Positions 11,816 to 56,324 of a DNA stretch of 64,000 nucleotides are shown in pieces. The position numbers were made by a program, and so were the translations under genes. This stretch comes from an uncultured Paracoccaceae bacterium (lineage in GTDB: Bacteria > Pseudomonadota > Alphaproteobacteria > Rhodobacterales > Rhodobacteraceae): the NCBI GenBank assembly GCA_947497985.1, contig CANMIX010000002.1:62001-126000 (forward strand), in the 5' to 3' direction. The notes beneath the pieces are model-generated. The model was not told the origin of the DNA and did not search any database. It saw nothing but the letters and a program-made list of their open reading frames with translations. The first letter of the stretch is position 1. Each line of letters starts with the position of its first letter.

Positions 11816-11829
11816 AACCAGTGCCGCAT

Positions 11830-11866
11830 TTGGGCCGTCGTTGCACTCACACGATAACGGGCCCAA
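11830..11866. terminator. Inverted repeat at the convergent gene ends
   Basis: TTGGGCC at 11830-11836 pairs with GGCCCAA at 11860-11866 across a 23-base loop that overlaps the 3' end of the fucU-like gene. It may act as a bidirectional stop between the peptide-importer operon and fucU. The arms are short, the loop is long and no T-run follows. Confidence 0.25.
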
Positions 11867-12266: not shown

Positions 12267-12407
12267 AATCTGCGCTCTCCGGACTTTGTTCACCACTGCT
12301 ATATGCCAAGCGAAGCAACGATACGAGCAAGCTTTTTCCACTTGTCCCGCATCCAGGCGGTTGCTGTGGTTGCCTGTGGTCACGAGTTGAGAAGCGGCGA
12401 AAAATCG

Positions 12408-13484: not shown

Positions 13485-14182
13485 CAGAGACCCTCCAAAC
13501 GCTTATGCGCCCGCCGCGCCAAGGCTTCCGACAGGAACAATGCCGCCAAGGCGATACTGACCGAAATCACCACTAACCGCGCAGCTGCATCTTCCTGACC
13601 GGGAACTTGCAACAACGCATAGATAGCCGAAGGTATCGTTTGCGTCTGACCGGGAATATTGGCGGCAAAGGTGATCGTTGCACCGAACTCCCCCAAAGCT
13701 TTGGCAAAGGACAGGATTGTTCCGGTCAAAAGCCCGGGGATCATCAGTGGGACGGTAACGGTCGCGAAAACCCAAATCGGCGAGGCCCCCAACGTCGCAG
13801 CCGCCTGCTCTAGCCTGATGTCTATCGCCTCCAAGGACAAGCGCAACGCCCGCACCATCAGCGGAAAGGCCATGACCCCCGCAGCCACTGCGGCCCCGGT
13901 CCAGCGAAAGGCTAAAACGATACCGATGTCTTGAAGCCATCCACCGATGAAACCTTGCGTGCCAAACAACAACAGCAGCATATAGCCGGTTACAACAGGC
14001 GGCAGGATCAGCGGCAAATGCGCCAAACCGTTCAAAATGGTTTTTCCGGGAAACTCCCATCGAACCAAGGCATAAGCCGTCAGGAAGGCCATAGGCGTGA
14101 TCGCCAATGTCGCCCAGAACGCCACCTTGGCAGAAATAAGCACCGCCTGCCATTCCATCGGGCTAAGCCAGTTCTGCATCAC
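13484..14182 (-). CDS. modB: Molybdate ABC transporter permease ModB
   Basis: 232-residue inner-membrane permease with about five transmembrane helices. It has ModB hallmarks such as LPLILPPVVTGYMLLLLFG and the EAA loop EQAAATLGASPIWVFATVTVPLMIPG, followed by FAKALGEFGATITFAANIPG. It lies six bases after modA and overlaps modC by TGATG. Confidence 0.95.
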   Translation of the reverse strand: MMQNWLSPMEWQAVLISAKVAFWATLAITPMAFLTAYALVRWEFPGKTILNGLAHLPLILPPVVTGYMLLLLFGTQGFIGGWLQDIGIVLAFRWTGAAVAAGVMAFPLMVRALRLSLEAIDIRLEQAAATLGASPIWVFATVTVPLMIPGLLTGTILSFAKALGEFGATITFAANIPGQTQTIPSAIYALLQVPGQEDAAARLVVISVSIALAALFLSEALARRAHKRLEGL

Positions 14183-37143: not shown

Positions 37144-37737
37144 TCACGCATCGTCGACCGTAACTACACCACGGCCTCCCTTGGCAATATCCAATGCGCG
37201 GTCCACCAACAAGCGGCCGTGTTCTTCAAACTTATCAGACAATTGACCCAAGGCCACCATATTCATCGCAAATGCCGCAGTTTCTGCCGCTCCGGCGGGC
37301 GCTGGATATTGGCGCAAATCGCCGGGACCCAGGGTTCCGTCGTAATACAAAACCGCCAAGGCGCAATTCACTGTGTCATCATCCACATAGGCGTGATCGA
37401 TGGTTACCCGTGCCGCATCGCGGTTTTCCTCGGAGGGATCCAACACCCAGGCCTCGGATGTGGCCAACGACGGCGGGTCCTTGGGGCTGCGCGGCCCGAT
37501 ATAGTCGCGCGCCGCCAGACAGGCCCACCAGACCCGTTCCCGTGCAGGCAACAAGACGCCCCACACGCGCAGCAAATCCACCAACGCGCCCTTGCGCTCC
37601 AACTCTTCCAGAACCACCCCGGCCAATGCCGTCGGCGGCGCCTCCAACGGCGTTTTCAACAGCACGTTGGCACGCGACAACAGTTTGGCCACAGGATCTG
37701 GTGGAATTTTCACCAGACTATCAAATCGACCGCTCAT
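37144..37737 (-). CDS. T6SS-linked protein between PAAR and VgrG, function unknown
   Basis: 197 residues, mostly helical, soluble, no signal peptide. It recalls a small family (possibly DUF6931, from memory) found beside vgrG in this group; no catalytic motif is seen. The ATG at 37737 is preceded by GGTGG and lies nine bases after the vgrG stop. The position between the spike genes suggests an adaptor or chaperone loading PAAR or cargo on VgrG, which is inference. Confidence 0.75.
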   Translation of the reverse strand: MSGRFDSLVKIPPDPVAKLLSRANVLLKTPLEAPPTALAGVVLEELERKGALVDLLRVWGVLLPARERVWWACLAARDYIGPRSPKDPPSLATSEAWVLDPSEENRDAARVTIDHAYVDDDTVNCALAVLYYDGTLGPGDLRQYPAPAGAAETAAFAMNMVALGQLSDKFEEHGRLLVDRALDIAKGGRGVVTVDDA

Positions 37738-37746
37738 ACCCACCAC

Positions 37747-39831
37747 CTAGTTAATCATCGTCAGGCCACCCTTAAGGGTAAGCATTGCATCACCTTTGAC
37801 CGTCGTCATCGGAGCTTTGGCTTCCACCATACCGCTGCCCTCGATTTTGATCATTGGACCTTTGATTGTTACGCCGGAATTGTCGATTTTCACTGACGAG
37901 GCGCCCACCTGCAACAAAATCTCCATACCGGCCGTCATCTTGACCTTGCCTGCTGTCACATCCACCGTCAGATTGCCCAGCTTTACGGTTTCCTTGTGAT
38001 CGCCCATCTCAATGGTTTCTGTCATGTCCCCTTTTTCAATGGTCTCAATCTTGTTGCCCGTTTTCACGGTCTCGGTGCGATCGCCTTTGTTGACAGTCTC
38101 GGTGACATGTTCCTCAACCGTCATCACATAAGATTTTTCATCTGCAGCGGTCACCTCGGGCGACGGCTCATCCAGACCAATAGTGACGGTTGACCGGTCC
38201 TTGATCAGCATCTGATGGTCCTTTTGCGCCTGCACACGCATCAGCTCGCTGTCTTTTTTGTCGTCAAACATCAGCTCGTTATAGCCGCCTCCCCCTTTGG
38301 AGGAGTTGGTTTTGATCCCCAGCTGGGTCTGATAGTCCGGGTAGTTATAGGGAGGCATTGTGTCCTTGTTGAACAGCATGCCCGTACAGATCGGACGATC
38401 CGGGTCGCCTTCCTCAAATTGGATCACCACTTCCTGACCCATACGCGGAATCGCAACCATGCCCCAGTCGGTCCCCGACCACGGCGTCATCACCCGCACA
38501 AAACACGAGGATTTTTCGTCCTTCTTCCCTTCGCGATCCCAATGGAACTGGATCTTGATCCGGCCGTGTTCATCGGTCCAAATCTCTTCACCGCTGGACC
38601 CCACAACCGTCGCCGTATGCAGGCCGCTGATCTCGGGCCAGGCGGTCGTCAATGGGGCACGGAATTGCTCCGCCTTCTCAATCGCACCAAAGGTCGAGGA
38701 ATAAGAGTCACCGGCAACTTCTTCGGGGAAATCCATGTTGACCGGCTTGATATCGCGCCGCATCTCACCCTGATCGCTGTCTTTGGTTTTGCGCTGTTCG
38801 CGTTCGGAATAGTCGCCAGAAACCTGCAGGTAATGGATGGCATCCGTGACCAGATACTCGCCGTTTAAAACCTTGTCCGGATGTTCTTTTAGCTTAAAAG
38901 TATTGCCGGTCCCCATCATCCGCACATTTGAAGCCCCACGCCAGCGCTTATAGCGGGTCGCCTCTGCTTCCATCCGCACACGAGCCTGTTTGTTCCCCAG
39001 CGTGGTTTCCTTGCGGTAGTGACCGGGGTAGTCATAGAACTCAAAATTCTTGTGACTGTGCGAGCCTTTGGGAATTGCATCGCTGACCTCCAGACCCGCA
39101 GAGGGGCTGAGGAAGTCAAAGTCATTCAACGACACTTTGCCTGTTGTCAGATTTTCCGCCATCGACAATTCGGAAATATGATCTTCGCGGCGGCGGTCAT
39201 TGTCATCACGGGCGTGAAATTCAATATCGGTATGTCCCGCGACCGGCGAATGCGCACTGATCCCGTCGCATAGGATCATCTTCTCCACCGTATCGGCATT
39301 GCTTTCACTGTCGAAGTAGAAGTAGATCCCTTCTTCTTCCATCAACCGGCAGATAAAGTCGTAATCGCTTTCGCGATATTGCACGCAATATTCACGCTTC
39401 TCATAGGTTTCGCTCAGCTTGTCGCTGTAGTCGCTGAACCCATGATCGCTAAAGATCTGTTTGATGATCTCAACAGCTGTTTTTTCCTGGAATACACGGC
39501 AATCAGTGGTGCGCGTCAACAGCCACAACCATGGACGCACCTCTGCCACATAAAGCCCGTAACCATCACGAAACCCCATGTTTTCTATAGAAACACAAAG
39601 GCCCGCAAACCGGCGCTCGGTCATGTCGGCGGCAATCACATGCAGGTTCATGGTCTTGCCGACCAGTTGATCCAGCTTGACCGCCTTGTTCTTGGACTGG
39701 ATCTCGATTGTCGTCTCGGTCAGTTGGCTCAACCCCTCACGCACAATCGCCCGCTTCATGAACAGGTCTTTTACTGAATAGCTTCCCGCCATCCAAACCA
39801 TGTCACTCTTGTGGGATTTACTAACTACCAT
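37747..39831 (-). CDS. vgrG: T6SS spike protein VgrG (TssI)
   Basis: 694 residues. It has gp27-like domains ([52 protein letters not shown]) and a gp5 OB-fold ([68 protein letters not shown]). It ends in a C-terminal beta-prism needle of repeats ([20 protein letters not shown]). It ends after the needle (LKGGLTMIN), so it has no fused effector. GGAGGGG precedes the ATG. Confidence 0.96.
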   Translation of the reverse strand: [694 protein letters not shown]

Positions 39832-39891: not shown

Positions 39892-42800
39892 TCACAAATC
39901 ATCCAACAATGCGGCAAGTTCCGCATCAAAATCATCATCACCATCGCTGGCCACGTCCGCATCGGGCGTGGTGTCGTCAAATCCCGCCAACAGCGCGTCC
40001 AGCTCCGCATCCAGATCTTCGCCTTCCTCGGCCGCCGGTGCAATGTCTTGCGCCACCTCATCGGCCGCAGGTTCCGGCACTGCTGCCACTTTCGGCGGCG
40101 AAGGCGGCGGCACCGGAATACCGCTCCAGGGACCGGCCAATGGTCCACCAGTCAACGCCATAAACGAGGTAAGGCGGATCTCATCGCGTCCTTTCACGGC
40201 GGCGATGGTCATATACCCACGTTCCTTGGCGGCGGCGATCTTGTCCAGATCTATGTTGCGTTCGGTACACGGCAGCGCCACCTGATCGCCGAAACGGTCC
40301 AAAACATAGTGATACGGCATCTCCCCCAAGGACATGATCGACCCAAGGTTCAGACCCGCGCCATTCTCCTTGAACGAACGTGCCATCAGGATGGCGGCCA
40401 GAGCAACAGGATTGCCCCACAACATGCCGCTCAAGCCCTCAGATTGCGAGAACTCCTCAAAGTCGAACTCATAAATAGGATCCGTCTTGGCCCCATACGG
40501 CCTGCGCAGCAGGAAACGCGGCGACACAAGGCCAAGGTGGCTCGCCTCGCTCATACCTGCCAATGTGTCCCATGCCTCGGCCACCAATTTTGGTCGTTCT
40601 TCTTTGGCGCTGGCGAGGAACGTTGGGGCAATTGCCGTCAGGAACGGCGCATCAATATGGGCCGCAACCCGCGCCAGACGCCCCAACAGCTCGGCATGGG
40701 GCGGCGTTTCCTCAAAAGTGTAGAGCCCAACAACCGCAGAATAACCACCGCGACCCAATTCCGGGTCCATCGGTTCTTCGGTCAACAGGCGCAAAAAGCC
40801 GCTTTGTGTCAGGTCTTCCTCCGCCGCGAGATCCGCCGCCAACTCCTCGGCGGAGACGTCATAGAGCATCAGTTCCAACGTATCATCGGTCTGGATCGAC
40901 CGCGCCATCAGATCCAGCGTGCGCCACTGCGCCTCAACCGCTTGAAATTCTGGATGATGCAGAACCATCCGCATGGCATGGGTCAAGGACTGCGTCACCG
41001 CATCGGCCATCGCCGTGGCATTGGGATCGGGCAAGGCGCGGATATAGGGACCAACCACCCGTTCCAACAGCTCTGCAACCGGCGAGCCTTCGGTGACTTG
41101 CGGGGTTGTGTCGCCGATCAACCTTTGAAAATCGCTCAACCGCAGATCGGCAGGAACCGAGGTCGCCGAGGACGTCAACCGGGGCGCCGCCGCCGGGGTG
41201 CCGTATTTCTCACCCCATGCTTTCAACGCATTCGCCGCGTGCTCTGCAGTCGCCCCACTGGCCAATTGCTGTTTCAATCCTGCAAGTTCGGAAAACAGAT
41301 CCAGCTTTTCATACAGCTCATCCGGGTGCAGATCATCCAAACCACCCAAGGGCACATTCAAAACCGCACCGTCTTTGCCAATGGGCAGGGCCAGGTCGCC
41401 AGCAAACCCTTCGATCACTTCCTCAACGGTGTCCACATCCAACAGCTGCGCGGGTCGATTGGCCAGGTCATCGCCAAGACCCAACATGCCCTTTGCCGCA
41501 CGGCCCGAGAAATCACCCAAAACCGCGATCCGGAACCGACGCCGTTTCAATTGCTCCGCTGCAGGCCGCTCAGCCGACATTGTGCCAAAGGGGAATTCAA
41601 TAGCATCACGCGCAGGGGTCGCCGCATCGCCGGGCGCATCTGCCAATTCGCCATCCGCGTCCAAACCATCGAGCAGACCAGCCAGATCGTCACCAACGCT
41701 TTCCGGGGCATCCGCCAACAGATCATCCAGATCCACGTCAAGCGCGCCATCGACCTGATCGGCGGTTTCGATATCGGACAACAGATCATCCAACCCCGTG
41801 TCGGCCTCGTCATCGTCAAGGCCCAACTCTCCCAACAAATCGTCTAATCCTAAATCATCAACTACGCTTGCGGCGGGTTCAGGTTCAGAAACCGTTGCTG
41901 CCGCAGGCTCGTCTTCAATCCCAAGATCCGCAAGAATGTCATCAACATCCACCCCCGCGTCATCCCCAGCGCTTTCCGGCTCGTCTGTCGTCTCGGTCTC
42001 GGTCAATTCGCCCAACAGGTCATCCAGACCAAGGTCGTCACCCGCGCCCTCGTCGGTCTCCACCTCGGTCAAAGCCGCCAATGTTTCGGCAACATCATCC
42101 ACCTCCGACGTCTCGGCGACGTCAGACGAAAGCCCGGCCAGAATATCGTCGACACCAGCCGCACCCGCATCATCCTCCGACGGCGTTTCATCCAGATCCG
42201 CCAACAGATCACCCAGATCAACCTCAGCCTCGACTGCTTCTTCAGGCGCGGCCTCGGCCAGCGCTGCCAGCGTCTCCGCCGCGGCATCAGGCGTGTTTTG
42301 CGCCACGGGAACAGCCTCAGCCAGATCCGCAAGCACATCGCTCAGGTCCGTTTCATCACCGTCCTCAGCTTGCGGAGCGGCCGCGCTAATCTGTTCCAGA
42401 ACATCTGCAACGGCGTCCAGATCTTCTGCCGGATCAGAGGCCTCAGCCGCCGCCAGATCCCCTAGAATGTCGGCGACATCATCACCCGATACATCAGGAA
42501 CTTCCGCGCCAGCCTGTGCGATACCAGCCAAAATATCGTCAGCCTCGTCTTGCACTGGACCCGTGTCGCTTGGCTCTTCTGCACGCAACGCATCCAGCAC
42601 ACCCTCCGCCGCGTGCGGATCTTCCGCTCCCGCATCCGCAGTTTCCGTTGCCGCCAAACCTGCAAAGGCCTCCGCGACTTCGTCACGACCCGTGGTGTCA
42701 GACTCCCCACCTGCTTGCGCAACCCGGGCCAACACGTCATCCGTATCAAGTGTATCGTCGGCGACATCCGCAGGCGCCTCAGCACGCAAAGCGTCCAGAA

Positions 42801-43560
42801 CTCCGGCCGCGGTCCCTTCCTCCGCACTCTCTTCAGGCGCGGCATCGGCAAGGGCACTCAAAACATCTGCGGCTGTGTCGCTCGCAACGGGCGCCGCCGG
42901 TGCGGACGCCGCCAATCCATCCAGAACCGCTTGCGCGTCGGGTTCCGGCGGCGCTTTTGCCACCGGTGCAGCCGCCGCCAGGCTGGCAAGGGCCTCCGCC
43001 GTTGCATCCCCCTCTTCCGCTTCAGGCGTCTGTGCGCGCAATTCATCCAGAACCGCCGCCAGATCTTCGGGCGCGCTCTCATCGGGTTGAAACCCGGACA
43101 AGAGGTTTGGGTCCTGCAGGATTTTCTCCACCAACGCCTCGGCCCCGGCCTTACCATCCATATAGGCCATCAGCGTTGTCAGCTCTTGACGCGCTTGCAA
43201 CAAGGGCTTCAGCGCGTCCACCTTGGAAGCTATCGCGCCCGGCGTAAAATCATCAAGGCTCTCAAAGGTCAGATCAACAGCCAGATTGCCCTCACCGGTC
43301 AATGTATTGGGCACGGTAAAGGCCGCACGCGGCGCCATCGCCCGCATACGTTCGTCAAAATTATCGACGTCAATTTCCAGAAACTTCCGGTCCGCAATCG
43401 AGGGCTGTTCCACTTTGGATTTGCCCACAAGATCGCTCATCACTCCCATGACAAAGGGCAGCTGGACTTTCTTTTCTGCGCCATAAAGCTCTACGTCATA
43501 TTCAATCTGAACACGCGGCGCACGATTGCGGGCAATGAATTTCTGGGAATTGTCAGCCAT
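39892..43560 (-). CDS. Giant sheath-like fusion: TssB domain, acidic repeat, second TssB-like domain, shortened TssC-like domain
   Basis: 1222 residues. Residues 1-155 are nearly the same as the separate TssB at 54504-55016. Residues 165-650 are an Asp/Glu/Ala/Leu-rich repeat with about 22 copies of a short helical motif such as VLDALRAE or LDDLLGEL. Residues 675-775 are a second TssB-like domain (RFRIAVLGDFSGR, LDDLHPDELYEKL). Residues 810-1140 are TssC-like (HHPEFQAVEAQWRTLDLM, LVSPRFLLRRPYGAKTDPI) and stop before the last approximately 105 residues of normal TssC. The tail (1150-1222) is proline-rich, then acidic with two more motif copies. It overlaps the sodium-channel gene by 8 bases, and GGGAGG precedes the ATG. 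Canonical tssB and tssC are also present, so this is an additional component; its role is unknown. Confidence 0.9.
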   Translation of the reverse strand: MADNSQKFIARNRAPRVQIEYDVELYGAEKKVQLPFVMGVMSDLVGKSKVEQPSIADRKFLEIDVDNFDERMRAMAPRAAFTVPNTLTGEGNLAVDLTFESLDDFTPGAIASKVDALKPLLQARQELTTLMAYMDGKAGAEALVEKILQDPNLLSGFQPDESAPEDLAAVLDELRAQTPEAEEGDATAEALASLAAAAPVAKAPPEPDAQAVLDGLAASAPAAPVASDTAADVLSALADAAPEESAEEGTAAGVLDALRAEAPADVADDTLDTDDVLARVAQAGGESDTTGRDEVAEAFAGLAATETADAGAEDPHAAEGVLDALRAEEPSDTGPVQDEADDILAGIAQAGAEVPDVSGDDVADILGDLAAAEASDPAEDLDAVADVLEQISAAAPQAEDGDETDLSDVLADLAEAVPVAQNTPDAAAETLAALAEAAPEEAVEAEVDLGDLLADLDETPSEDDAGAAGVDDILAGLSSDVAETSEVDDVAETLAALTEVETDEGAGDDLGLDDLLGELTETETTDEPESAGDDAGVDVDDILADLGIEDEPAAATVSEPEPAASVVDDLGLDDLLGELGLDDDEADTGLDDLLSDIETADQVDGALDVDLDDLLADAPESVGDDLAGLLDGLDADGELADAPGDAATPARDAIEFPFGTMSAERPAAEQLKRRRFRIAVLGDFSGRAAKGMLGLGDDLANRPAQLLDVDTVEEVIEGFAGDLALPIGKDGAVLNVPLGGLDDLHPDELYEKLDLFSELAGLKQQLASGATAEHAANALKAWGEKYGTPAAAPRLTSSATSVPADLRLSDFQRLIGDTTPQVTEGSPVAELLERVVGPYIRALPDPNATAMADAVTQSLTHAMRMVLHHPEFQAVEAQWRTLDLMARSIQTDDTLELMLYDVSAEELAADLAAEEDLTQSGFLRLLTEEPMDPELGRGGYSAVVGLYTFEETPPHAELLGRLARVAAHIDAPFLTAIAPTFLASAKEERPKLVAEAWDTLAGMSEASHLGLVSPRFLLRRPYGAKTDPIYEFDFEEFSQSEGLSGMLWGNPVALAAILMARSFKENGAGLNLGSIMSLGEMPYHYVLDRFGDQVALPCTERNIDLDKIAAAKERGYMTIAAVKGRDEIRLTSFMALTGGPLAGPWSGIPVPPPSPPKVAAVPEPAADEVAQDIAPAAEEGEDLDAELDALLAGFDDTTPDADVASDGDDDFDAELAALLDDL
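41611..43068 (-). repeat. Coding repeat of short acidic helical motifs
   Basis: The stretch encoding residues 165-650 of the fusion protein repeats a pattern of the form [D/E]-x-[D/A]-[V/I/L]-L-x-x-L-[A/R]-x, spaced about 15-35 residues. Examples are AAGVLDALRAE, EADDILAGIAQ, DLSDVLADLAE, GLDDLLGELT and DLDDLLADAP. The N-terminal half is Ala/Pro-rich; the C-terminal half is more Asp-rich. The repeats are similar but not identical at the DNA level. Confidence 0.85.
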
Positions 43561-44413
43561 CCGCGCCTCCCTTTAGCGCCGCCACTTCGCGGCGCAAGGC
43601 TTTGATCTCTTCGTGCAGCGCCAGCACGTGGGCGTCGACCATATCCGTCTCGGTGCGCACCAGATCGCGCAGCTTTTCAAACTCCTGTTCGGCTTCTTCC
43701 TCCACCGCAGACTGCATGGTGTTGACCAAGAGACCGATAAACAGGTTCAAGACCGAAAAGGCTGTGATGATGATGAAGGGGACAAAGAACGCCCAAGCCG
43801 CCGGGTGTGCCTCCATCACCGGGCGCACGATGCCCATCGACCAGCTTTCCAGCGTCATGATCTGGAACAGCGAATAAAGCGACCGGCCAAGGGTGCCGAA
43901 CCATTCATCGAAACTGGCGCCATACATCAGCGTCGCCATCACGCCAAAGACGTAAAAGACGATAGAAATCATAATGATAACAGCGCCCATTCCCGGCAGC
44001 GCATCCAACAAAGCCTGCACCACCGCCCGCATCTGCGGGATGACAGACAACAGACGCATCGCCCGGATCACCCGCAAGCCCCGCAGCGCCGAAAGGCCCT
44101 GACGGTCCGGCAACAGGCCAAGCCCCACAACCACCAGATCAAAGATATTCCAAGCCGAGGTAAAGAACCGCAGCCCATAGGCATAAAGCTTGAGCAGCAG
44201 CTCGATCACAAAGATCGCCAGAACGATGTCATCCAGCAGCGAGATAAAGCCGCCAGCCACCGACATCACATTCGCTGATGTCGACAGCCCCAGCATGATG
44301 GCGTTGAAAATGATGATCGCAAGAATAGCATTGCCGACCCAGCGGGTTTCGACAAAATCGCGCACCTTATCGCGCATCGTGGCCCCTTCTGGGCGCGTGC
44401 TTTCTACGTTCAT
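43553..44413 (-). CDS. Voltage-gated sodium channel (BacNav type)
   Basis: 286 residues, one six-helix subunit that would form a tetramer in the inner membrane. The S1-S4 sensor lies at about 27-130, with S4 arginines at 111, 114, 117 and 120 in regular three-residue spacing and another at 129. S5 is near 141-165 and the selectivity filter is TLESWSM at 187-193, as in bacterial sodium channels. S6 is near 209-232, followed by a C-terminal coiled coil (233-282). GGAG precedes the ATG. It overlaps the sheath-fusion gene by 8 bases, so it is an integral part of the T6SS operon. A calcium-permeable variant cannot be excluded from the filter alone. Confidence 0.92.
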   Translation of the reverse strand: MNVESTRPEGATMRDKVRDFVETRWVGNAILAIIIFNAIMLGLSTSANVMSVAGGFISLLDDIVLAIFVIELLLKLYAYGLRFFTSAWNIFDLVVVGLGLLPDRQGLSALRGLRVIRAMRLLSVIPQMRAVVQALLDALPGMGAVIIMISIVFYVFGVMATLMYGASFDEWFGTLGRSLYSLFQIMTLESWSMGIVRPVMEAHPAAWAFFVPFIIITAFSVLNLFIGLLVNTMQSAVEEEAEQEFEKLRDLVRTETDMVDAHVLALHEEIKALRREVAALKGGADG

Positions 44414-44448: not shown

Positions 44449-45402
44449 TCACAGAATGTCGGACGCAACTTCAAAGACCTTGAGCGCGATATCGATGGCT
44501 TTCTTGACCTTTTCCGCATGGGCTTTGACGGTTTTCAGATCCAGTTTCCCTTGGGTTTCCTTGGTCTTCTGCAGCGCCAATTCCGCGAATTTGCGGCCGT
44601 TCTTCTCGGTCGTGTTGAACTCGATGATCTGCACGATCATATCGTTGATGGCTTTTTCCTGCTTCTTGGTGACCGCGACGCCATCGTCTTGAAGCTGCAG
44701 CAGTTGTTCCAAAGGTTTCGCCATTGACGACGCCTTTTGCCGCGCGGCAGTCAGCTTGACCTTGTATTCTTTTACTGTGTCTTCGACCTTGGTGATGTGG
44801 CTTTTGCCAACTTTGCCGTCTTGGGTTGCCTTGGCCATTTTTTCCAAGGCTTTCATCAGGTCTTCGCGCACCTTGGCCTCGGTTGCGATGGCTTTCTTGA
44901 CCTCTTTGGCGATGCTGTAGACCGATTTGGCGACCTTGTAATATTCATCCAGCTTCGCGCCAGAGCTGGCCACCAGGGCGGCGATAGATTTACCGATCTT
45001 GACCACGCCCCAGGTGATATTGGCGGCGATCTTCAGCTTCCACTTGGTGTATTCTTTGTTCTCTTTCTTGATCTTTTCCCAGGACGATTTGATCCGGTTC
45101 TGGGCTTCTTTTTCCAGGTTTCCGACCAGCTTTTTCAACTCGGCATTGACCAGCTTGGCCTTCTTCTCGACCGCGGCCTTGTCGCTCATCCCTTCGAATT
45201 CTTTGTCGTATTTCTGGATCGCGGGATTGATGGCGATTTTGCTGTAGTCGTTCAGATAGGCGTAGACCGGCTCCATGATCCGGGCCAGCAAAGAGGTGTC
45301 GACCTCCTTGCCGGACACTTTCAGGGTGATTTTCCCATCCGGCAGGTCCAGATTCTTGGCTTTTACCGTGATCAGTTGGAAGGTTCTCGTGACTTCGGCC
45401 AT
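44449..45402 (-). CDS. Lysine-rich helical protein of unknown function in the T6SS operon
   Basis: 317 residues. A short N-terminal beta-like part (1-32, TRTFQLITVKAKNLDL) is followed by long charged helices very rich in Lys. A moderately hydrophobic helix lies at about 124-149 (AANITWGVVKIGKSIAALVA). There is no signal peptide and no recognised catalytic motif. GAGGAG lies eight bases before the ATG. It sits between clpV and the sodium-channel gene and is co-oriented with the T6SS genes. A secreted membrane-active effector or a structural accessory are both possible; no immunity-like gene is obvious unless the channel gene has another role. Confidence 0.8.
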   Translation of the reverse strand: MAEVTRTFQLITVKAKNLDLPDGKITLKVSGKEVDTSLLARIMEPVYAYLNDYSKIAINPAIQKYDKEFEGMSDKAAVEKKAKLVNAELKKLVGNLEKEAQNRIKSSWEKIKKENKEYTKWKLKIAANITWGVVKIGKSIAALVASSGAKLDEYYKVAKSVYSIAKEVKKAIATEAKVREDLMKALEKMAKATQDGKVGKSHITKVEDTVKEYKVKLTAARQKASSMAKPLEQLLQLQDDGVAVTKKQEKAINDMIVQIIEFNTTEKNGRKFAELALQKTKETQGKLDLKTVKAHAEKVKKAIDIALKVFEVASDIL

Positions 45403-45440: not shown

Positions 45441-48173
45441 TTATTCAAAGCTGTAGGTGAATTCGCCGTCGGCGACGTCAATGGCGACTTTCTCGGCGTC
45501 CTTGCCTTCGATCAGGCGGCGCAGAAATTCGTTCGAGACCTCGGGCAGCATGGTATTGGTGACAATCGCGTCAATCATCCGGCCACCGCTGTCCAACTCC
45601 TGACAACGGTTGACGATCTCGGCCACCACGGCGTCCGTGTATTCAAACGGCACACTGTGCGCTTCCTCGACGCGTTTTTTGATCCGGCCAAGCTGTAGTT
45701 TCGTGATTTCCGACAGCATATCCGGGCTGAGCGGATAATAGGGGATCGTCACGAGACGCCCCAACAGCGCGGGCGGGAAAATTTTCAACAGTGGATCGCG
45801 CAAGGCCTTGGCGATCCCATCTGGTTCCGGCATCAGATCCGGGTCACTGCACAGATCCATGATCATTTCCGAACCTGCGTTTGACGTGAGCAAGATCAGG
45901 GTGTTTTTGAAATCAATCACCCGCCCTTCGCCATCTTCCATGATGCCTTTGTCAAACACCTGAAAGAAGATCTCATGCACGTCGGGGTGGGCTTTTTCGA
46001 CCTCATCCAGCAGGACCACGGAATAGGGTTTACGCCGCACCGCTTCGGTTAGAACGCCGCCTTCGCCATAGCCAACGTAACCGGGAGGCGCGCCTTTGAG
46101 CGAGCTGACAGTATGCGCCTCTTGGTATTCTGACATATTGATGGTGATGATGTTTTGCTCACCACCATACAGCACCTCAGCGAGGGCCAGCGCGGTTTCG
46201 GTTTTGCCCACGCCCGAGGTGCCTGCGAGCATGAAGACACCGATGGGTTTATTGGGATTGTCCAGACCTGCACGGCTGGTCTGGATGCGTTTTGCGATCA
46301 TCTCCATCGCGTGGTCCTGACCGATGACGCGTTTGGCCAGATGGGTTTCCAGGCTCAAGATGGTCTCAATCTCATCCTTGACCATACGGCCCACGGGGAT
46401 GCCGGTCCAATCGCCGACAACCGAGGCCACCGCCTGATGATCCACAATCGGCAGGATCAAGGGACGGTCGCCTTGGAGCGTTTCCAGCTCGGCGTTCTTG
46501 TCCTTGAGCTCTTGCATGAGCTTAGCGCGGTCTTCATCCGACAACGGGCTGTCTGTCTCGGTTTCGGTGGCGCCCTCCGCACCTTTACCCCCAGCATCCG
46601 CGGCAGTGTCAACGGGCGCGGCGCCCTCCCGGAGTTTGGCGCGCAGGTCCAAGATCGCGTCGACGCAGGTCTTTTCCTTGTCCCACTGCGCGGTCAGATC
46701 CGCCAATCGCAGCTCTTCTGCGTCCTTGGCAGCGGTCACGGTGGCGCGGCGGTCGGCGACTTCATAGCCAGCGGTTTCGTCGCGGCCAATGATTTCCAGC
46801 TCGGTCGTCAGCGCTTCAATGCGGCGCTGGCTGTCGTCGACCTCGGCTGGGACTGCGTGTTGGCTGACCGCAACGCGTGCACAAGCCGTATCCAACAGGC
46901 TAACCGATTTATCCGGCAATTGCCGCGCGGGGATATAACGCGCCGACAATGTTACCGCGGCCTCGATCCCTTCGTCCAAGACCTGAACCCGGTGGTGTCC
47001 TTCGAGCATGGTGGCAATGCCGCGCATCATCAGCGTTGCTTTGACGATGTCGGGTTCGTCCACTTTCACCACCTGGAACCGGCGGGTCAGGGCGGGGTCT
47101 TTCTCGATGTATTTCTTATATTCTGCCCAAGTGGTCGCACCAATGGTCCGCAAGGTGCCACGTGCCAAGGCAGGTTTCAGCAGGTTGGCCGCATCCCCGG
47201 TCCCAGCGGCACCGCCCGCCCCCACCAATGTGTGGGTCTCATCCACGAACATCACGATGGGCACAGGGCTGGCCTGAACCTCATCGATCACCTGACGCAG
47301 GCGGTTTTCAAATTCACCCTTCATGCTGGCCCCGGCCTGCAACAGACCCACATCCAGCACCAACAGGCGCACATCCTGCAGCGACGGCGGCACATCACCG
47401 CGTGCAATGCGCAGGGCAAAACCTTCGACCACAGCCGTCTTACCAACACCCGCCTCGCCGGTCAGGATCGGATTGTTCTGGCGGCGGCGCATCAACACAT
47501 CGACGATCTGGCGGATCTCTTCATCGCGGCCCACAATGGGGTCAATCTCACCGTTTTTGGCCTGTGCCGTCAGATCCGTGCAGAACTGCTCCAGCGCCTC
47601 GCCCTTGCCCATGGCACCCGGAGCCATCGCGCCAGAGGCTTCGCCCGGTTCCGCTCCACCACCAACGTTTGATCCATCCTGCGGCGCCAGCCCCTCTTCG
47701 GGGGAGCCGTCGGTGGCGTCCATAAAGTTATCGGCCAGATCATCCGCACCGATCTTGGACAGTTCGGGTGAAATCGACATCAGAATGTTGCGCAACGCCG
47801 GGGTTTTCAAAATCCCCAACAGCAAATGCCCCGACCGCACCTGATTGGCGGAATACAAGAGCGACCCCCAAACCCAGCCGCGTTCCATCGCGTCCATCAA
47901 ATGGTCGGACAGATCGGAAATCGTCGAAGCCCCCCGTGGGAGCCCGTCCAGATTGCGGGTCATTTCAGCAGCAATTTTGCCAGTGTCCAGATCGTAATGA
48001 GCAATAATCCGGTGCAGGTCGCTGTCCTGTCCGGCAAGCAATTGATGCATCCAATGCACCAGTTCCACATAGGGGTTTCCGCGCATTTTGCAGAAGACCG
48101 TCGCGCTTTCGACGGCCTGATAGCCCAGTTTGTTCAACTTACCAAAAAGCGCGACGCGGCTGATTTCGGTCAT
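45441..48173 (-). CDS. clpV: T6SS sheath-recycling ATPase ClpV (TssH)
   Basis: 910-residue AAA+ ATPase of the ClpB/ClpV family. It has an N-terminal Clp repeat domain (1-160), first Walker [10 protein letters not shown] with [12 protein letters not shown], a middle coiled-coil (about 470-590), and a second Walker [10 protein letters not shown] with LLDEVEKAH. It also has the ClpV C-terminal domain. It disassembles contracted TssB/TssC sheaths. GAGGAG lies nine bases before the ATG. It follows tssG by 13 bases. Confidence 0.96.
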
Positions 48174-51056: not shown

Positions 51057-51566
51057 TCAGCCCCCCCGATCCACGTCAACTTCGCCGGTCGTCAGATCCA
51101 CTTTGCTGCGTAGATACAGCTCAATCGGCATCGGTTGCGCCCACATATCGGCGCGAATATCCAGACCCACAGTCATATCCGCAGGGTCTGTTCCCTCGCG
51201 TAGCTGCACATCCACCGACCCTTCGATGATACGCGGTTCAAACTGGGAAATCGCATTCGAGATCGACCTACGCACGGCTTCGGCCCGCTCGCTGCCGGTG
51301 TATTTCCCCGACACTTCCGACAATCCAAAATTCAACACCGAGGCCGCCACGCGTGGAAACCGTTCCGTATCCATATGGCTTTCGGCGTTTTGCGTATTCA
51401 GCAGCCAGGACAAGTCCCTTTGAATGATCGCCCGCAACCGGTGCAGATCAATCACCCGACTGTCACGCGACTCCTTCAGGTTTCCGGGATCATTGTCCGT
51501 CAACCGATCCAAAAGGGAGGGTTGCAGCCGTTCCGCAAGAGACTTGTCAACCATCGGTGTCGGCAT
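51057..51566 (-). CDS. tssE: T6SS baseplate protein TssE (gp25-like)
   Basis: About 169 residues with the gp25-like pattern: AERLQPSLLDRLTDNDP, LRAIIQRDLSWLLNTQN and the C-terminal SNAISQFEPRIIEGSVDVQL...IRADMWAQPMPIELYLRSKVDL. Possible starts are ATG at 51593, 51566 and 51554; none has a well-spaced ribosome site, and the gene overlaps the tagJ end. 51566 is a compromise. Confidence 0.9.
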   Translation of the reverse strand: MPTPMVDKSLAERLQPSLLDRLTDNDPGNLKESRDSRVIDLHRLRAIIQRDLSWLLNTQNAESHMDTERFPRVAASVLNFGLSEVSGKYTGSERAEAVRRSISNAISQFEPRIIEGSVDVQLREGTDPADMTVGLDIRADMWAQPMPIELYLRSKVDLTTGEVDVDRGG

Positions 51567-52350
51567 CTCCCGCCATGACAAGCGAGCGCACATCCATCAA
51601 CGCCACGTCGCTTTGATCGGTGGCAAGCAGGCGCTGGCCCAGACCGACAAACGTATCGTGGCCAAGGTCTTGCCACTGGGTGGCACGCGCCATTTTTGCC
51701 GCCTCGTCACCCTGTGCAGAGCCGGGATACCGTGTCGGGATCAGCGCCGCCAGTTCGCCGCCATTCACCAACGTCAGCACGCCCGCCATCCAGACAGTAT
51801 CGCGCAAATCGCTTGGCTCTTCGATTTCCAGACTTTGGATCTGGGAAAACGGCAGCCAATAGTATTTGCCGTTGATCAGCACTTCCAACACAGGTCCCAA
51901 CCGCACATCAGCGTCAGCAACCCATTCAAAAGAAACGCCATTTAAGGTTCCGCTGCTGGTGGGGGCTGCATCAAACGCCTGCGCGCGCAGGCTGGCGGCC
52001 TCTTCCACACGGCCTGCGGCCAGATGTTTTTGCGCCTCGATCAAATGCGCAAGCCATGGCTCTGGCTCACCCAGGATCAAAGGGTCTTTTTCGCCCGCGA
52101 ACACTTTGTCACGGTACACTTCACAAATAATCGCCTCGCGGTAGGTCTGCGCCATCATGGTGGCGCTTTCGTCCAATTCCGCGCTCAGCTTCAACTGGGC
52201 AATCGCCCGTTTCCAATCCCCGAGAATACACAACAGCTGAAACAGGAAAATCCGCAGCTTAGGGTTGGACGGATCCTTGCGCACACTGTCTTGCAACGCA
52301 GCCAGCGCTTTTACGGGATCGCCCGCTTTTAAATAGTCTTCTGCGGTCAT
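51547..52350 (-). CDS. tagJ: T6SS accessory protein TagJ (ImpE family)
   Basis: 267 residues. An N-terminal TPR-like part (MTAEDYLKAGDPVKALAALQDSVRKDPSNPKLRIFLFQLL) precedes the ImpE C-terminal domain (LIPTRYPGSAQ...DVRSLVMAG). In other T6SS, TagJ binds the N-terminus of TssB and assists ClpV. The ATG at 52350 has GGAG upstream; the frame is open further upstream without homology. Confidence 0.92.
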   Translation of the reverse strand: MTAEDYLKAGDPVKALAALQDSVRKDPSNPKLRIFLFQLLCILGDWKRAIAQLKLSAELDESATMMAQTYREAIICEVYRDKVFAGEKDPLILGEPEPWLAHLIEAQKHLAAGRVEEAASLRAQAFDAAPTSSGTLNGVSFEWVADADVRLGPVLEVLINGKYYWLPFSQIQSLEIEEPSDLRDTVWMAGVLTLVNGGELAALIPTRYPGSAQGDEAAKMARATQWQDLGHDTFVGLGQRLLATDQSDVALMDVRSLVMAGDADTDG

Positions 52351-52381
52351 GGCGCGGCTCCGGGGAAACTTGTTACTTGGG

Positions 52382-52410
52382 TTATGCCCCGCAACGGATG
52401 CGGGGCATAA
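52382..52410 (-). terminator. Strong hairpin downstream of hcp
   Basis: A perfect 12-base stem TTATGCCCCGCA/TGCGGGGCATAA (52382-52393 and 52399-52410) with a 5-base loop lies 11 bases beyond the hcp stop and before tagJ. No T-run follows on the minus strand. It is more likely an mRNA-stabilising or attenuating hairpin that raises hcp level relative to downstream genes than a full terminator. Confidence 0.6.
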
Positions 52411-52421
52411 AATAGGCCGGA

Positions 52422-52925
52422 TCAGTACTCGAACTTGCCTTTTTGAACGTTCCACTTAAAGACCACAGGGCTTTCCAGCTTACCGGTCTTCTGGTTGGTC
52501 GATTTGTAAGTGTGCTCAATCGCGGCATAGGCCAGCGACCAAGTTTCCTCAGGAATGCCATCTGCGCTGGCCGACAGGGAATAGCTGTCGATCACCACTT
52601 CCTTGAACTTCCAGACGGAATATTCCAACAGGCCATCAGCTTGCGCGTCACCTGAACGACACCAGTGCATGGTGATTTCAGGACGGATGGTGCCGTTGGC
52701 AACCGACTTGGCAATCTCATTCGAGGCTTTGCCCATCTGCGAGGTCAGCTCAACTTTACCAAAGTTGGAGTTGGCGTGCATACGCTGGGTGGACCCCAGG
52801 TCGCTCATCTCAACCGAACGTTCAACGTTCCAGCTCGCGGATTCGATAACAATCCACTTCTCGTGTTTTTGCTCCATCGAATCCCCATCGATGTCGGAGA
52901 TCTCGATAAACATATTCGCAGCCAT
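52422..52925 (-). CDS. hcp: T6SS tube protein Hcp (TssD)
   Basis: 167 residues. Hcp forms the stacked hexameric inner tube. Family features: MFIEISDIDGDSMEQKHEKWIVIESASWNVER near the start, the CRSGDAQADGLLEYSVWKFKEVVIDSYSL segment and ETWSLAYAAIEHTYKSTN. AAAGGA precedes the ATG. It lies between tssC and tagJ, with a strong hairpin after it. Confidence 0.96.
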   Translation of the reverse strand: MAANMFIEISDIDGDSMEQKHEKWIVIESASWNVERSVEMSDLGSTQRMHANSNFGKVELTSQMGKASNEIAKSVANGTIRPEITMHWCRSGDAQADGLLEYSVWKFKEVVIDSYSLSASADGIPEETWSLAYAAIEHTYKSTNQKTGKLESPVVFKWNVQKGKFEY

Positions 52926-52992: not shown

Positions 52993-54492
52993 TTAACCTC
53001 CCTTTTCTGAAGGCAGTTTGGATACCAGGCGGAGCGAAATCGACAGCCCCTCCAGCTGGTAATGGGGACGCAGGAAGAATTTCGAGCTGTAGTAACCCGG
53101 ATTGCCTTCGACCTCTTCCACAACCACTTCGGCAGCCGCCAGTGGTTTGCGCGCCTTTTCAGACTCTGACGAAATGTCAGCGTTGAAATCCACGTAATTG
53201 TTGATCCATTCCTGCAGCCAGTTTTCCATGTCCTGACGGCTTTTGAAGGAGCCGACTTTGTCGCGCACCATACATTTCAGGTAATGGGCAAACCGGCAGG
53301 TCGCGAACAGATAGGGCAGACGTGCGCCCAGGTTCGCGTTGGCAGTTGCATCGGGATCATCATATTCAGCGGGCTTGTGCAGAGACTGCGCGCCCATGAA
53401 TGTCGCCACATCGGTGTTTTTGCGGTGGATCAACGGCATCATACCGTTTTTCGCCAACTCCGCTTCGCGACGGTCGTCAATCGCGATCTCGGTTGGACAT
53501 TTCTGATCCACGCCACCATCCGTGGTCGGGAAGGTATGCGATGGCAGATCCTCCAGGGTACCGCCGCTTTCGACGCCCCGGATCCGCGAACACCAGCCGT
53601 ACATTTTGAACGAGCGGGTGATATTCACCGCCATGCCATAGGCCGCATTGACCCAGCCATATTTCTCGCTGCCCGCACCTGCGGTGTCTTCCTCAAAGGC
53701 AAACTCTTCCACCGGATCGGTCTGCGACCCATAGGGCAGACGGCCCAGGAAACGTGGCATTGCAAGACCCACATATTTCGCATCTTCGCTGTCACGCAGC
53801 GAACGCCAGGCCGCATATTCCGGCGTCTGGAAGATCTTGGTCAGATCCCGCGGGTTTGACAGTTCGGACCAGCTGTCCATTTGGAACAAGGTCGGCTTGG
53901 CCCCGGTGATCAATGGCGCATGGGTTGCCGCCGCGATCTTGGACATTTCACCCAGCAGTTCGATGTCTGGTGGAGAATGGTCAAAGTGGAAGTCCGCCAC
54001 CAACGAGCCATAGGGTTCACCACCCAATTGGCTGAATTCTTCGGTATAAAGCTTTTTGAAGATCGGGGATTGATCCCAGGCGGTGCCTTTGAACTTCTTG
54101 AGCGTTTTACCCAGCTCTTTCTTGGTGATCGGCATCACCCGGATCTTGAGCATTTCGTCAGTTTCGGTGTTGTTCACCAGGTAATGCAACCCGCGCCAGG
54201 CACTTTCCAGCTGCTGGAATTCCTCGTTGTGGAGGATCTGGTTCACCTGTTCGGTCAGCTTCTTGTCAATTTCTGCGACAATGCTCTCAATCGAGCGCAG
54301 CGCGTCGTCTGAGATTAACCCGGTGTTGGCCAGCGCCTGTTCGGCGAGGGTTTTGACCGCGCTTTCAACAGCTGTCTTTGCCTGATCCGACTTGGGGCGG
54401 AATTCCTTCTGCAGAAGGTTTGCAAATTCGCTGGAACCAAAAGCCGCTTCGCCAGCGGCCGCTTCCTGTTGGAGATCTTGTTCAGCCATCAT
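52993..54492 (-). CDS. tssC: T6SS contractile sheath large subunit TssC
   Basis: 499 residues with canonical TssC segments: ILHNEEFQQLESAWRGLHYLV, FHFDHSPPDIELLGEMSKIAAATHAPLI, GLAMPRFLGRLPYGSQTDPVEEF, and the C-terminal FATCRFAHYLKCMVRDKVGSF...FFLRPHYQLEGLSISLRLVS. Two adjacent ATG codons (54492 and 54489) follow AAAGGAG. This is the normal sheath protein, in contrast to the shortened TssC-like domain at 40141-41133. Confidence 0.96.
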   Translation of the reverse strand: MMAEQDLQQEAAAGEAAFGSSEFANLLQKEFRPKSDQAKTAVESAVKTLAEQALANTGLISDDALRSIESIVAEIDKKLTEQVNQILHNEEFQQLESAWRGLHYLVNNTETDEMLKIRVMPITKKELGKTLKKFKGTAWDQSPIFKKLYTEEFSQLGGEPYGSLVADFHFDHSPPDIELLGEMSKIAAATHAPLITGAKPTLFQMDSWSELSNPRDLTKIFQTPEYAAWRSLRDSEDAKYVGLAMPRFLGRLPYGSQTDPVEEFAFEEDTAGAGSEKYGWVNAAYGMAVNITRSFKMYGWCSRIRGVESGGTLEDLPSHTFPTTDGGVDQKCPTEIAIDDRREAELAKNGMMPLIHRKNTDVATFMGAQSLHKPAEYDDPDATANANLGARLPYLFATCRFAHYLKCMVRDKVGSFKSRQDMENWLQEWINNYVDFNADISSESEKARKPLAAAEVVVEEVEGNPGYYSSKFFLRPHYQLEGLSISLRLVSKLPSEKGG

Positions 54493-54503: not shown

Positions 54504-55016
54504 TTATTCTTCGCTCTCATCGCTGCCCGGTTTGGACTGCGCGGCAAGGGTTTTCAAAAGGCTCGGATCCTGAATGATTTTTGAAATCAGATCCTCAGCA
54601 CCGGTTTTACCATCCATATAGGTCATCAGGTTCGACAGCTGGGTGCGGGCTTCCAACAGCTCGCGCAGCGGCTCAACCTTGGCAGCGATGGCGGCAGGTT
54701 TGAAATCATCCATGCTCTCAAAGGTGATATCGACGGCCATATTGCCCTCGCCTGTCAGCGTGTTGGGCACGGTAAAGGCGGCACGTGGCGCCATCGACTT
54801 CATCCGGTCGTCAAAGTTATCAACATCGATTTCCAGGAATTTGCGGTCCGCAACAGCGGGCTGCTCAACCTCGGATTTGCCAACCAGATCGCTCATCACC
54901 CCCATGACAAAGGGCAGTTGGACCTTTTTCTCGGCACCATAAAGCTCCACATCATATTCAATCTGGACCCGTGGCGCCCTGTTGCGGGCAATGAACTTCT
55001 GTGAACTGTCGGCCAT
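54504..55016 (-). CDS. tssB: T6SS contractile sheath small subunit TssB
   Basis: 170 residues with the TssB pattern RVQIEYDVELYGAEKKVQLP, FVMGVMSDLVG, RKFLEIDVDNFDDRM and LTFESMDDFKPAAIAAKVEPL. Along residues 1-155 it matches the N-terminus of the giant fusion at 39892-43560 at most positions, showing a recent duplication or ongoing constraint. AAGGAG precedes the ATG. It lies 11 bases before tssC. Confidence 0.96.
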   Translation of the reverse strand: MADSSQKFIARNRAPRVQIEYDVELYGAEKKVQLPFVMGVMSDLVGKSEVEQPAVADRKFLEIDVDNFDDRMKSMAPRAAFTVPNTLTGEGNMAVDITFESMDDFKPAAIAAKVEPLRELLEARTQLSNLMTYMDGKTGAEDLISKIIQDPSLLKTLAAQSKPGSDESEE

Positions 55017-55085: not shown

Positions 55086-56147
55086 TCAATCGTCGTCTTC
55101 GATACCGCCGATCAGATTGACATTGTCGACCCCTTCGGGCGCCATGTCTTTCATGATCGTCATAAAGTCTGCACCAACCAATCGCTTGGCACGGTGCAGC
55201 ATGATCGGCAGCGGGCTGGACGGTTCAACCCGCTCGTAATACGAAATAATCCGGTCCAATGCGTTGGACACATCCGCCGGGGTATTGATCGCGCCCGGAA
55301 CGGCAGCAGCAACTGGCGCGGCTGCAACCGCTGCCCCGCCACCTGCTGGTGCAGAAGCTTCCACATCAGATCCTGCGTCATCGGCGCTTGCACCGCTCAT
55401 CCCACCCAGATCGCGCATCTTGGCAGACAGGGTGCGCAGCAATTTGATCAGCGGGTCCAGCTCGGGGCCCTGCCCCGGTGTCTTGTCGTCAAAGACGGCC
55501 GAAATCGCGCGTACATCCGCCTCGGCCTGCTCCCAGGCGGCCAGCCATCCGGCCAGCTCATCGGCGTCACTGTCCTGAAACGCCGCGCCAACCGTTGCCG
55601 CATCCGGCGGGTTTTCCATGTCACTGGGCGCGGCGGTCAGCCCTTCGGCCACCTCAATGTCACGCAGGGAAAAGCGACCAAAGCCACGGCTGTTGGTCAG
55701 CGGCACCCGCCGCAACGACCGATAGACCGGAGACGGCCCAGCCATCCCATCCGGTTGGCCGCACAGATCCTGCACTGCATTGATCCGCATAGTGGGATCA
55801 CCATCGTCTTCGTCCAACTCGGGGTGGCAGCTGTCCCAGAACTGCTCAAGGCAGCCGCGGACATAGGCCATCACTTTGGCAAAACCTTCGGGGCCTTCAA
55901 TATTCAACAGCGCATCGGCAAGGAACACAGCCGCACGCAATTCATGGCTCTGTTCCAGAACCTCAACCGCTTTGGTGCGTACTTCGCGATAGTCGGGATC
56001 ACTCGCCTCGATCCGCTCGTCACCCATCACCGACTCTTCGCCGGGTTGGGCCGCCAATTCCATTTCGGTAAAGACGGGATCGTATTCCAGATTCTCGCCG
56101 CTAGGTGCAGCGTCACCTTTTGATTGCAAAAGGATCTCAGGATCCAT
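55086..56147 (-). CDS. tssA: T6SS protein TssA (ImpA N-terminal domain)
   Basis: 353 residues. It has the ImpA N-terminal motif AAPSGENLEYDPVFTEMELAAQPGEES and DPDYREVRTKAVEVLEQSHELRAAVFLADALL, then an Ala/Gly-rich linker and a short C-terminal helical domain (ALDRIISYYERVEPSSPLPIMLHRAKRLVGADFMTIM). TssA starts tube/sheath assembly. The ATG at 56147 is chosen because the family begins MDPEILL; upstream the frame only reaches a TTG. It is the first gene of the long minus-strand run. Confidence 0.94.
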   Translation of the reverse strand: MDPEILLQSKGDAAPSGENLEYDPVFTEMELAAQPGEESVMGDERIEASDPDYREVRTKAVEVLEQSHELRAAVFLADALLNIEGPEGFAKVMAYVRGCLEQFWDSCHPELDEDDGDPTMRINAVQDLCGQPDGMAGPSPVYRSLRRVPLTNSRGFGRFSLRDIEVAEGLTAAPSDMENPPDAATVGAAFQDSDADELAGWLAAWEQAEADVRAISAVFDDKTPGQGPELDPLIKLLRTLSAKMRDLGGMSGASADDAGSDVEASAPAGGGAAVAAAPVAAAVPGAINTPADVSNALDRIISYYERVEPSSPLPIMLHRAKRLVGADFMTIMKDMAPEGVDNVNLIGGIEDDD

Positions 56148-56324
56148 GCAACGGCCCCCCAAACTCAGTAACCCGGTTAATTACGACAGAAGCGCGACCG
56201 GCAGATCCCCTCCCCGTCACACATTCGAAATCGTCGAACCTAAAAACAATATCTTGACCCAGAGGAAGCCTTATCGGCATCCTAAAGTCAATTGTTTTCA
56301 CGAGTTTGTTGAGAGTGTCAAAAT
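56148..56324. promoter_or_regulatory. Divergent promoter region of the T6SS operon
   Basis: 177 bases between tssA (minus) and the unknown gene at 56325 (plus). TTGACC at about 56254 (plus) and TTGACT at about 56286-56291 read on the minus strand face each other as an inverted pair. They could serve as divergent -35 elements or a binding site; no convincing -10 partner was found. Confidence 0.35.

Follow-up and report, generated by a model that had tools for sequence, protein, structure and literature searches.

Introduction

TssCL is a sheath-related protein encoded in loci of the type VI secretion system (T6SS); it was named in roseobacters by Suria et al. 2022 (PMC9515649), the main text of which left its function untested. 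As described there, TssCL has two VipA domains, the first of which closely resembles the TssB that its own locus encodes, and one VipB domain of about 31% identity to TssC; separate tssB and tssC genes are retained, the loci belong to the H1-like group 3 T6SS, and the protein was reported in Alphaproteobacteria only. By term search, that main text held no acidic, repeat, PF18945, truncation or ClpV, and no ion channel, ion transport, sodium or voltage; in the open-access literature the term TssCL was found in this paper only. Here we analyzed a tssCL gene in a stretch of 64,000 nucleotides (hereafter, the window) from an uncultured Paracoccaceae bacterium (assembly GCA_947497985.1, contig CANMIX010000002.1, positions 62,001 to 126,000).

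As in the published protein, two VipA matches and one VipB match were found in the window protein: the first VipA shares 81% identity with the locus TssB over residues 1-154, the second is weak by itself (E 0.0063 against PF05591, below the family cut-off), and the VipB is 30% identical to TssC over 298 residues; the locus likewise retains tssB and tssC and is H1-like. Judged from these matches, the window protein is a member of the published TssCL kind, a family described yet unexplained. The protein was known before, and what is added here is a sharper anatomy, a family history and a linked channel. The issue on which it bears is how T6SS sheaths stop, hold and fire, which is most open where TssA is short and TagA is absent; a naturally occurring sheath subunit that lacks the interlocking parts would be a ready probe of sheath termination.

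Domain organization of TssCL

The initial annotation had proposed that a single frame joins a near-copy of the locus TssB, an acidic repeat of approximately 490 residues, a second TssB-like domain and a truncated TssC-like domain, beside separate normal TssB and TssC, and this architecture was recovered in full by open reading frame (ORF) analysis and by Pfam and NCBIfam profiles (Table 1). The N-terminal TssB domain (hereafter, the head) was matched by T6SS_VipA (PF05591) in two stretches at residues 10-155 (E 3.2e-58) and, above the cut-off, by TIGR03358 at residues 6-155, and it keeps the arm residues of a TssB. The acidic part (the array) measures 492 residues, with 30% D/E and 1.2% K/R. 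It is followed by the divergent TssB-like domain and the TssC-like core, termed B' and C'. In C', VipB (PF05943) was matched at residues 854-1132 (E 1.6e-38) and TIGR03355 at residues 850-1127, corresponding to profile positions 52-342 of 473, with a score under the cut-off; VipB_2 (PF18945) was not matched, and neither mark by which a functional TssC was recognized (VipB_2 and TIGR03355 above cut-off) is present. The truncation seen by the initial annotation holds in that the gp25-like domain is missing, but about 90 more residues had been overlooked, through which the protein continues past the truncated core to two conserved short helices.

tssB, tssC, tssA, tagJ and tssH are all present in the same locus beside tssCL. 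The TssH of the window carries R6, F10, I85, D87 and L88, which by sequence reading places it in the ClpV1 class that accompanies TagJ. ImpE/TagJ and FHA genes accompany tssCL together with the separate tssB and tssC, the H1-likeness being read from the groove residues of TssH only; TssCL is an accessory protein of such an H1/TagJ-class T6SS.

Relatives and conservation of tssCL

Relatives were scanned in one genome per species, which gave 52 loci. One of these, L056 (39 residues, Lachnospiraceae), was discarded as a spurious hit, leaving 51 relatives, all named as Rhodobacterales-type organisms except L051, named as a bacterium only. The same domain order, a search for which had been proposed with the initial annotation, was found as a whole fused frame of 1059-1936 codons in 36 of the 51 loci; six contain a stand-alone B'C', eight are cut by a contig end and one is split. 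In the split locus (L054, Pseudophaeobacter leonis, 10001-13866), two frames with a 4-base overlap encode TssCL, one of 703 aa for TssB and array and one of 585 aa for B'C'; this may reflect a recent break or a fault in sequencing. The ratio of nonsynonymous to synonymous substitution rates (dN/dS) was 0.03-0.04 for the TssB head in five pairs; for the B'C' core, the two pairs that gave values were at 0.02 and 0.03 (L136/L142 had no boundary and L130/L144 no dS). These values are rough, dS being above 1 in most pairs; the close pair L136/L142 gave 0.04 for the head at a dS of 0.2. tssCL is under purifying selection.

The B'C' half

All 29 aligned B'C' members matched PF05591 in B' at E up to 1 (best 1.2e-8), and B' was found by BLAST with Rhizobium TssB at E 0.004-0.008. 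VipB_2 was found in none of the 29 sequences; this gp25-like, TssE-like domain should be the linker-accepting inner domain of the sheath subunit, according to the description in PMC5813253. The conserved TssB arm sequence was absent from all 15 stand-alone B'C' proteins, 10 of which start nearer to the GDF site than TssB does. The predicted structure of B'C' is a sheath body fold in a single chain, and the model aligned from about residue 25 to 503 as one chain with single-chain sheath proteins in a fold comparison covering B'C' only; a lack of any TssB/TssC fold in the C-terminal half, which would have spoken against the initial annotation, was thus not what the model gave. By sequence and model, B'C' has the body fold of a single sheath subunit, all in one chain, but lacks the arm sequence as well as the gpW/gp25-like domain and the part of TssC that comes after it, and the parts missing from it are probably those that stitch the rings of a sheath together. 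Because it has neither the inner linker-accepting domain nor the conserved arm, B'C' should not polymerise. The sheath proteins of extracellular contractile injection systems (eCIS), R-pyocins and phages are single-chain too; B'C' is 8-14% identical to them in the aligned rows, and differs in stopping short of the C-terminal part of many of them and in sitting beside a two-subunit T6SS sheath.

B'C' is, as far as its sequence relatives indicate, a family of its own that also occurs without TssB and array. Stand-alone forms of 570-600 aa are encoded in L040-L044 and L051, frames of 632-673 aa in L106-L108, and a protein of 592 aa as annotated in the betaproteobacterium Eleftheria terrae; divergent forms of 477-520 aa are found in genomes G122, G340, G424 and G453, and one of 509 aa in G793. 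The B'C' gene of G122 adjoins tagH, tssK, tssL and tssM. Unlike the published range of TssCL, the B'C' relatives therefore include Eleftheria and two genomes that are phylum-level kin only. In a phylum sample, B'C' profile matches were found in 3 of 398 genomes, this one included (five of the eight profile hits had frames of 170-267 aa, judged to be the size of a TssB, and were left out of the B'C' count); a class sample searched with a broader profile gave 2 of 337 genomes, again with this one, and an order sample 31 of 292. Ordinary TssC was also found in all 31 B'C' genomes of the order sample, where 80 of the 292 genomes had any VipB match.

TssC40/ImpD of Agrobacterium and Rhizobium resembles TssCL in being a second divergent TssC-like protein beside normal TssB and TssC, and in Agrobacterium TssC40 is reported to be required and non-redundant for Hcp secretion (PMC3702570). 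However, the ImpD of R. johnstonii, in which both VipB and VipB_2 were matched but VipA was not, is outside this family; tssCL shows neither that domain content nor a gene position between tssC and tagJ. B'C' as an orthologue of ImpD/TssC40 was ruled out, since ImpD has VipB_2 and no VipA. No B'C' was found in the four order-sample genomes from which an ImpC/ImpD pair was fetched (G405, G538, G563 and G569), and therefore the two kinds of second TssC do not co-occur there; G581, the genome with a fifth adjacent TssC pair, gave no B'C' match by profile.

The TssB head

In Pseudomonas aeruginosa HsiB1, the residues that bind TagJ are given as K9, F10, R18, Q20, Y23 and V25 (PMC4239648, in the part describing this contact). 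Of the 25 fused heads, 24 have these residues intact. The 24 heads also conserve nine hydrophobic positions in the range 99-134, and most hydrophobic positions of the helix region towards the end of the domain are retained; elsewhere the heads drift (mean entropy 0.81 at 101-110 and 0.94 at 111-120, vs 0.09 and 0.34); the degenerate head of L135 was omitted from the residue comparisons and from the head tree. The head tree was built from 24 heads and the TssB of 35 loci. In it, 21 of the heads fall into a single clade (100/99); those of L109 and L111 are placed beside the TssB of their own loci (99/92), as is that of L120 (99/90). Because these three heads cluster in this way, TssB was fused to B'C' at least twice; the head of L120 may perhaps reflect gene conversion instead of a separate joining.

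The acidic array and the C-terminal tail

The motif D[LIV][LI]..[LIF], in which dots are small or acidic residues, occurs 10 times in the window array, vs a maximum of 2 in 500 shuffles, and the hydrophobic period is 22 residues. Arrays were compared in 37 of 38 proteins (L008, lacking the boundary motif, was left out). They are 339-1201 residues long (median 666), with 23-40% D/E and less than 5% K/R; in 36 of the 37 the strongest hydrophobic period is 19-23 residues, and in 36 the motif copies exceed every shuffle. Related arrays differ by whole stretches. AlphaFold2 (AF2) gave short helices with a predicted local distance difference test score (pLDDT) of 45.9 and a predicted template modelling score (pTM) of 0.22 from a shallow alignment of 3 sequences. 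According to this model, the array consists of short helices strung together flexibly, which resemble those of the C-terminal tail; by eye, the array unit is like the tail, as though one docking helix had been multiplied. A folded solenoid was rejected, as the same prediction has no fixed fold, and so was a tandem repeat at the DNA level, of which one trivial match only was obtained.

The tail ends in [DE]LAA[LM]LxxL in, effectively, all 49 sequences (45 with the strict pattern, and 4 with the same stretch). It is also found in Eleftheria and is absent from the divergent proteins of G122, G340, G424, G453 and G793.

Possible function of TssCL

The reading we favour, with a probability of roughly 0.4, is that TssCL is a sheath-tethered, non-polymerisable mimic of a sheath protomer that caps or holds the sheath. 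A tether, or a cap at which growth would stop, had also been suggested by the initial annotation and is plausible. The TssB head would pair with free TssC or with TagJ, by which TssCL would be fixed to the growing sheath, and the B'C' body would dock on sheath subunits by the ordinary body contacts. As B'C' would neither receive nor give linkers, no further building on it could take place; TssCL would then cap the distal end, or take a fixed site or collar near the baseplate, and the sheath would be limited or steadied. The short helices of the array and tail might bind some partner in many copies. TagJ has been proposed as a collar at the baseplate and TssA moves to the distal end, as set out in the relevant part of PMC7896307, and either end is therefore possible for TssCL. 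With the stabilisers of sheath end and baseplate covered there (TssA, TagA, TagJ and TagB), TssCL may share a role as cap, anchor or collar. It is unlike TssA and TagA in that ImpA_N (PF06812), the mark of such caps, is absent from TssCL at E up to 1, and tssA and tagJ are separate genes in the window. Replacement of a missing tssA by TssCL was ruled out, tssA being present at 55086..56162.

Several observations weigh against a capping or holding role. In nine loci (L040-L044, L051 and L106-L108), B'C' is encoded with neither TssB nor array, and tethering by TssB is therefore not the whole function; L025 and L135 have a degenerate head, and L137 has none. The divergent orphan B'C' genes of G424 and G453 lie outside the T6SS locus. 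Since tssA and tagJ are encoded here, an extra cap is not obviously needed. Finally, 6 of 35 loci of the same class have no linked B'C', and in 4 of those 6 genomes no B'C' was found anywhere at the thresholds used; this class was recognized by DUF6931 or the channel described below, and it is therefore not independent of the channel.

The linked putative sodium channel

The gene upstream of tssCL, which the initial annotation did not mention, encodes a protein with an Ion_trans domain that matched the solved channel 5hvx at E 3e-80 and the NavAb entry 6p6w at E 7.2e-66. Its filter TLESWSM is found in 68 of 68 T6SS-linked channel copies, a filter of the TLESW type being characteristic of BacNav, the bacterial voltage-gated sodium channels. 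The product is by these matches a putative sodium channel of BacNav type. In fused loci, the channel gene ends from 11 bases past to 8 bases before the tssCL start. The channel gene was present in every fused-type locus for which upstream DNA is available (40 of 40; such DNA is missing for 5 of the 51 loci) and in 25 of 25 fused loci fetched from the order sample. The loci fetched there are the best-scoring 60 of 83 full TssC places outside this genome, and they overlap in species with the 51-locus set. Among stand-alone B'C' loci it was present in 1 of 6 and 1 of 3 (2/9 overall), and it was absent from all 32 of the fetched T6SS loci that have no linked B'C' (stretches up to 20 kb, three shorter).

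A channel homologue occurs somewhere in 235 of the 292 genomes of the order sample. A tree was made from 20 of the chromosomal copies, the window copy and 26 of the remaining 67 linked ones, and in it the 27 T6SS-linked channels are separate from the 20 chromosomal ones (100/100), which points to a dedicated paralogue clade. The linked copies share filter and fold match with known BacNav channels, and differ in forming this separate clade and in a gene that overlaps or abuts tssCL. Among the papers listed by searches of the open-access literature, seen as titles and the starts of abstracts, no report of such a channel in a T6SS was recognized. To our knowledge, the physiology of bacterial sodium channels is largely unknown.

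The main rival of the capping reading is a membrane-linked module, in which the channel would anchor or signal to TssCL and tie the sheath or baseplate to the membrane, to voltage or to sodium flux. It is favoured by the constant presence of the channel gene in fused loci and its absence from T6SS loci without linked B'C', by the closeness of the two genes, by the dedicated paralogues and by the filter kept in every linked copy. However, linkage of the channel and tssCL is not interaction, and the channel is possibly cargo, immunity or a bystander; it is missing from 7 of 9 stand-alone B'C' loci, and no binding site on it was identified. The filter TLESWSM is also kept in 20 of 20 chromosomal copies and is therefore not special to such a module. 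We regard the module as rather unlikely. The same guarded estimate is given to its wider form, in which TssCL and the BacNav-type channel would be one device coupling the T6SS to the inner membrane: the channel would anchor or inform TssCL, the TssB head would sit in the sheath and the B'C' body would cap or lock it, so that voltage or sodium entry would control sheath growth or firing. If the channel does belong to TssCL, the T6SS would be tied to a voltage-gated-type channel, and a role would be on offer for some bacterial sodium channels.

Other explanations

TssCL could also be an adaptor for recycling or recruitment, in which the TssB arm gathers TagJ, and through it TssH/ClpV, and the array provides many more docking sites for TssH or some other factor on contracted sheaths. 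The intact TagJ-binding residues of the head agree with this, as does the ClpV1-class groove of the window TssH, TagJ being thought to recruit ClpV in the ClpV1 class according to the passage on it in PMC4239648. Each array unit is a short amphipathic helix, and a segment of the G340 protein, SFLDSIMQETQ, looks by eye like the ClpV-binding helix of TssC. Yet R6 and D87 block the helix groove in this ClpV class, and helix-in-groove binding is therefore not expected; moreover, ordinary TssB already presents the same arm in many copies. The array as a ligand of the ClpV groove was thus rejected from the TssH residues, which are of the blocked-groove class, and the adaptor survives as a weak, improbable rival only.

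A functional sheath made of TssCL, TssB and TssC was left open by Suria et al. 2022 (PMC9515649, main text), and complete single-chain TssB-TssC fusions do occur in other alphaproteobacteria. That TssCL is one more structural subunit, a TssB-TssC protomer in one chain that polymerises with the others, is very improbable, however, since VipB_2 is absent in 29 of 29 B'C' sequences and the arm sequence is absent from B', whereas the complete fusions retain VipB_2 in the two scanned (L190 and L203). Even less credit is given to the array as a tape measure of the sheath, a length gauge that the initial annotation had suggested and that a long flexible repeat between two sheath-like ends would fit: the arrays of 37 proteins span 339-1201 residues, and related arrays differ by whole stretches, which speaks against it. 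An artefact of assembly or reading frame fusing two genes, of which the two overlapping frames of L054 could be a hint, is practically excluded because of the same-order relatives, with the whole fused frame in 36 of 51 loci, and the dN/dS far below 1.

Other features of the locus

The positions of tssCL, its parts and the neighbouring genes in the window are listed in Table 1, together with single-chain TssB-TssC fusions from other loci.

Table 1. Features in the window (positions counted from its first letter) and TssB-TssC fusions (positions within each named locus)
Feature	Position	Strand	Description
tssCL	39892..43560	-	ATG start, 1222 codons/1222 aa; TssB-array-B'C' fusion; ORF and Pfam/NCBIfam
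N-terminal TssB domain	43096..43560	-	residues 1-155; 81% identity to locus TssB; TagJ-binding residues kept
Acidic array	41620..43095	-	residues 156-647; 22-residue period; short-helix pattern x19
B'	41161..41619	-	about residues 648-800; divergent TssB-like domain, conserved TssB arm absent
C'	40165..41001	-	residues 854-1132; TssC-like VipB core, no VipB_2
Conserved tail	39895..40017	-	residues 1182-1222; two short helices, LDALLAGF and DAELAALLDDL (C-terminus)
BacNav-type sodium channel gene (putative)	43553..44413	-	T6SS-linked; filter TLESWSM; 8-base overlap with tssCL start
317-aa lysine-rich protein	44449-45402	-	between tssH and channel; ORF
tssH/clpV	45441..48173	-	R6, F10, I85, D87, L88 in groove; ClpV1 class from sequence reading
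tagJ	51547..52455	-	TPR and ImpE, PF07024
tssC	52993..54492	-	normal large sheath subunit; VipB and VipB_2 both matched
tssB	54504..55016	-	normal small sheath subunit; Pfam/NCBIfam
tssA	55086..56162	-	PF06812, 91.8 bits
vgrG	37747..39831	-	immediately downstream of tssCL; synteny with annotated Leisingera plasmid
DUF6931 protein	37144..37746	-	right after vgrG; PF22011
TssB-TssC fusion, L206	1467-3392
TssB-TssC fusion, L207	6318-8273
TssB-TssC fusion, L208	4596-6575
TssB-TssC fusion, L209	6800-8728
TssB-TssC fusion, L210	7211-9205
TssB-TssC fusion, L211	6331-8259
TssB-TssC fusion, L212	6922-8820

For the 317-aa lysine-rich protein, no Pfam or NCBIfam family was matched above cut-off, and relatives were found in part of the loci only. 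The single-chain TssB-TssC fusions, of 632-664 aa, were found in seven alphaproteobacterial genomes of 0.6-2 Mb. The gene for the DUF6931 protein adjoins vgrG in the six same-class loci without linked B'C' as well.

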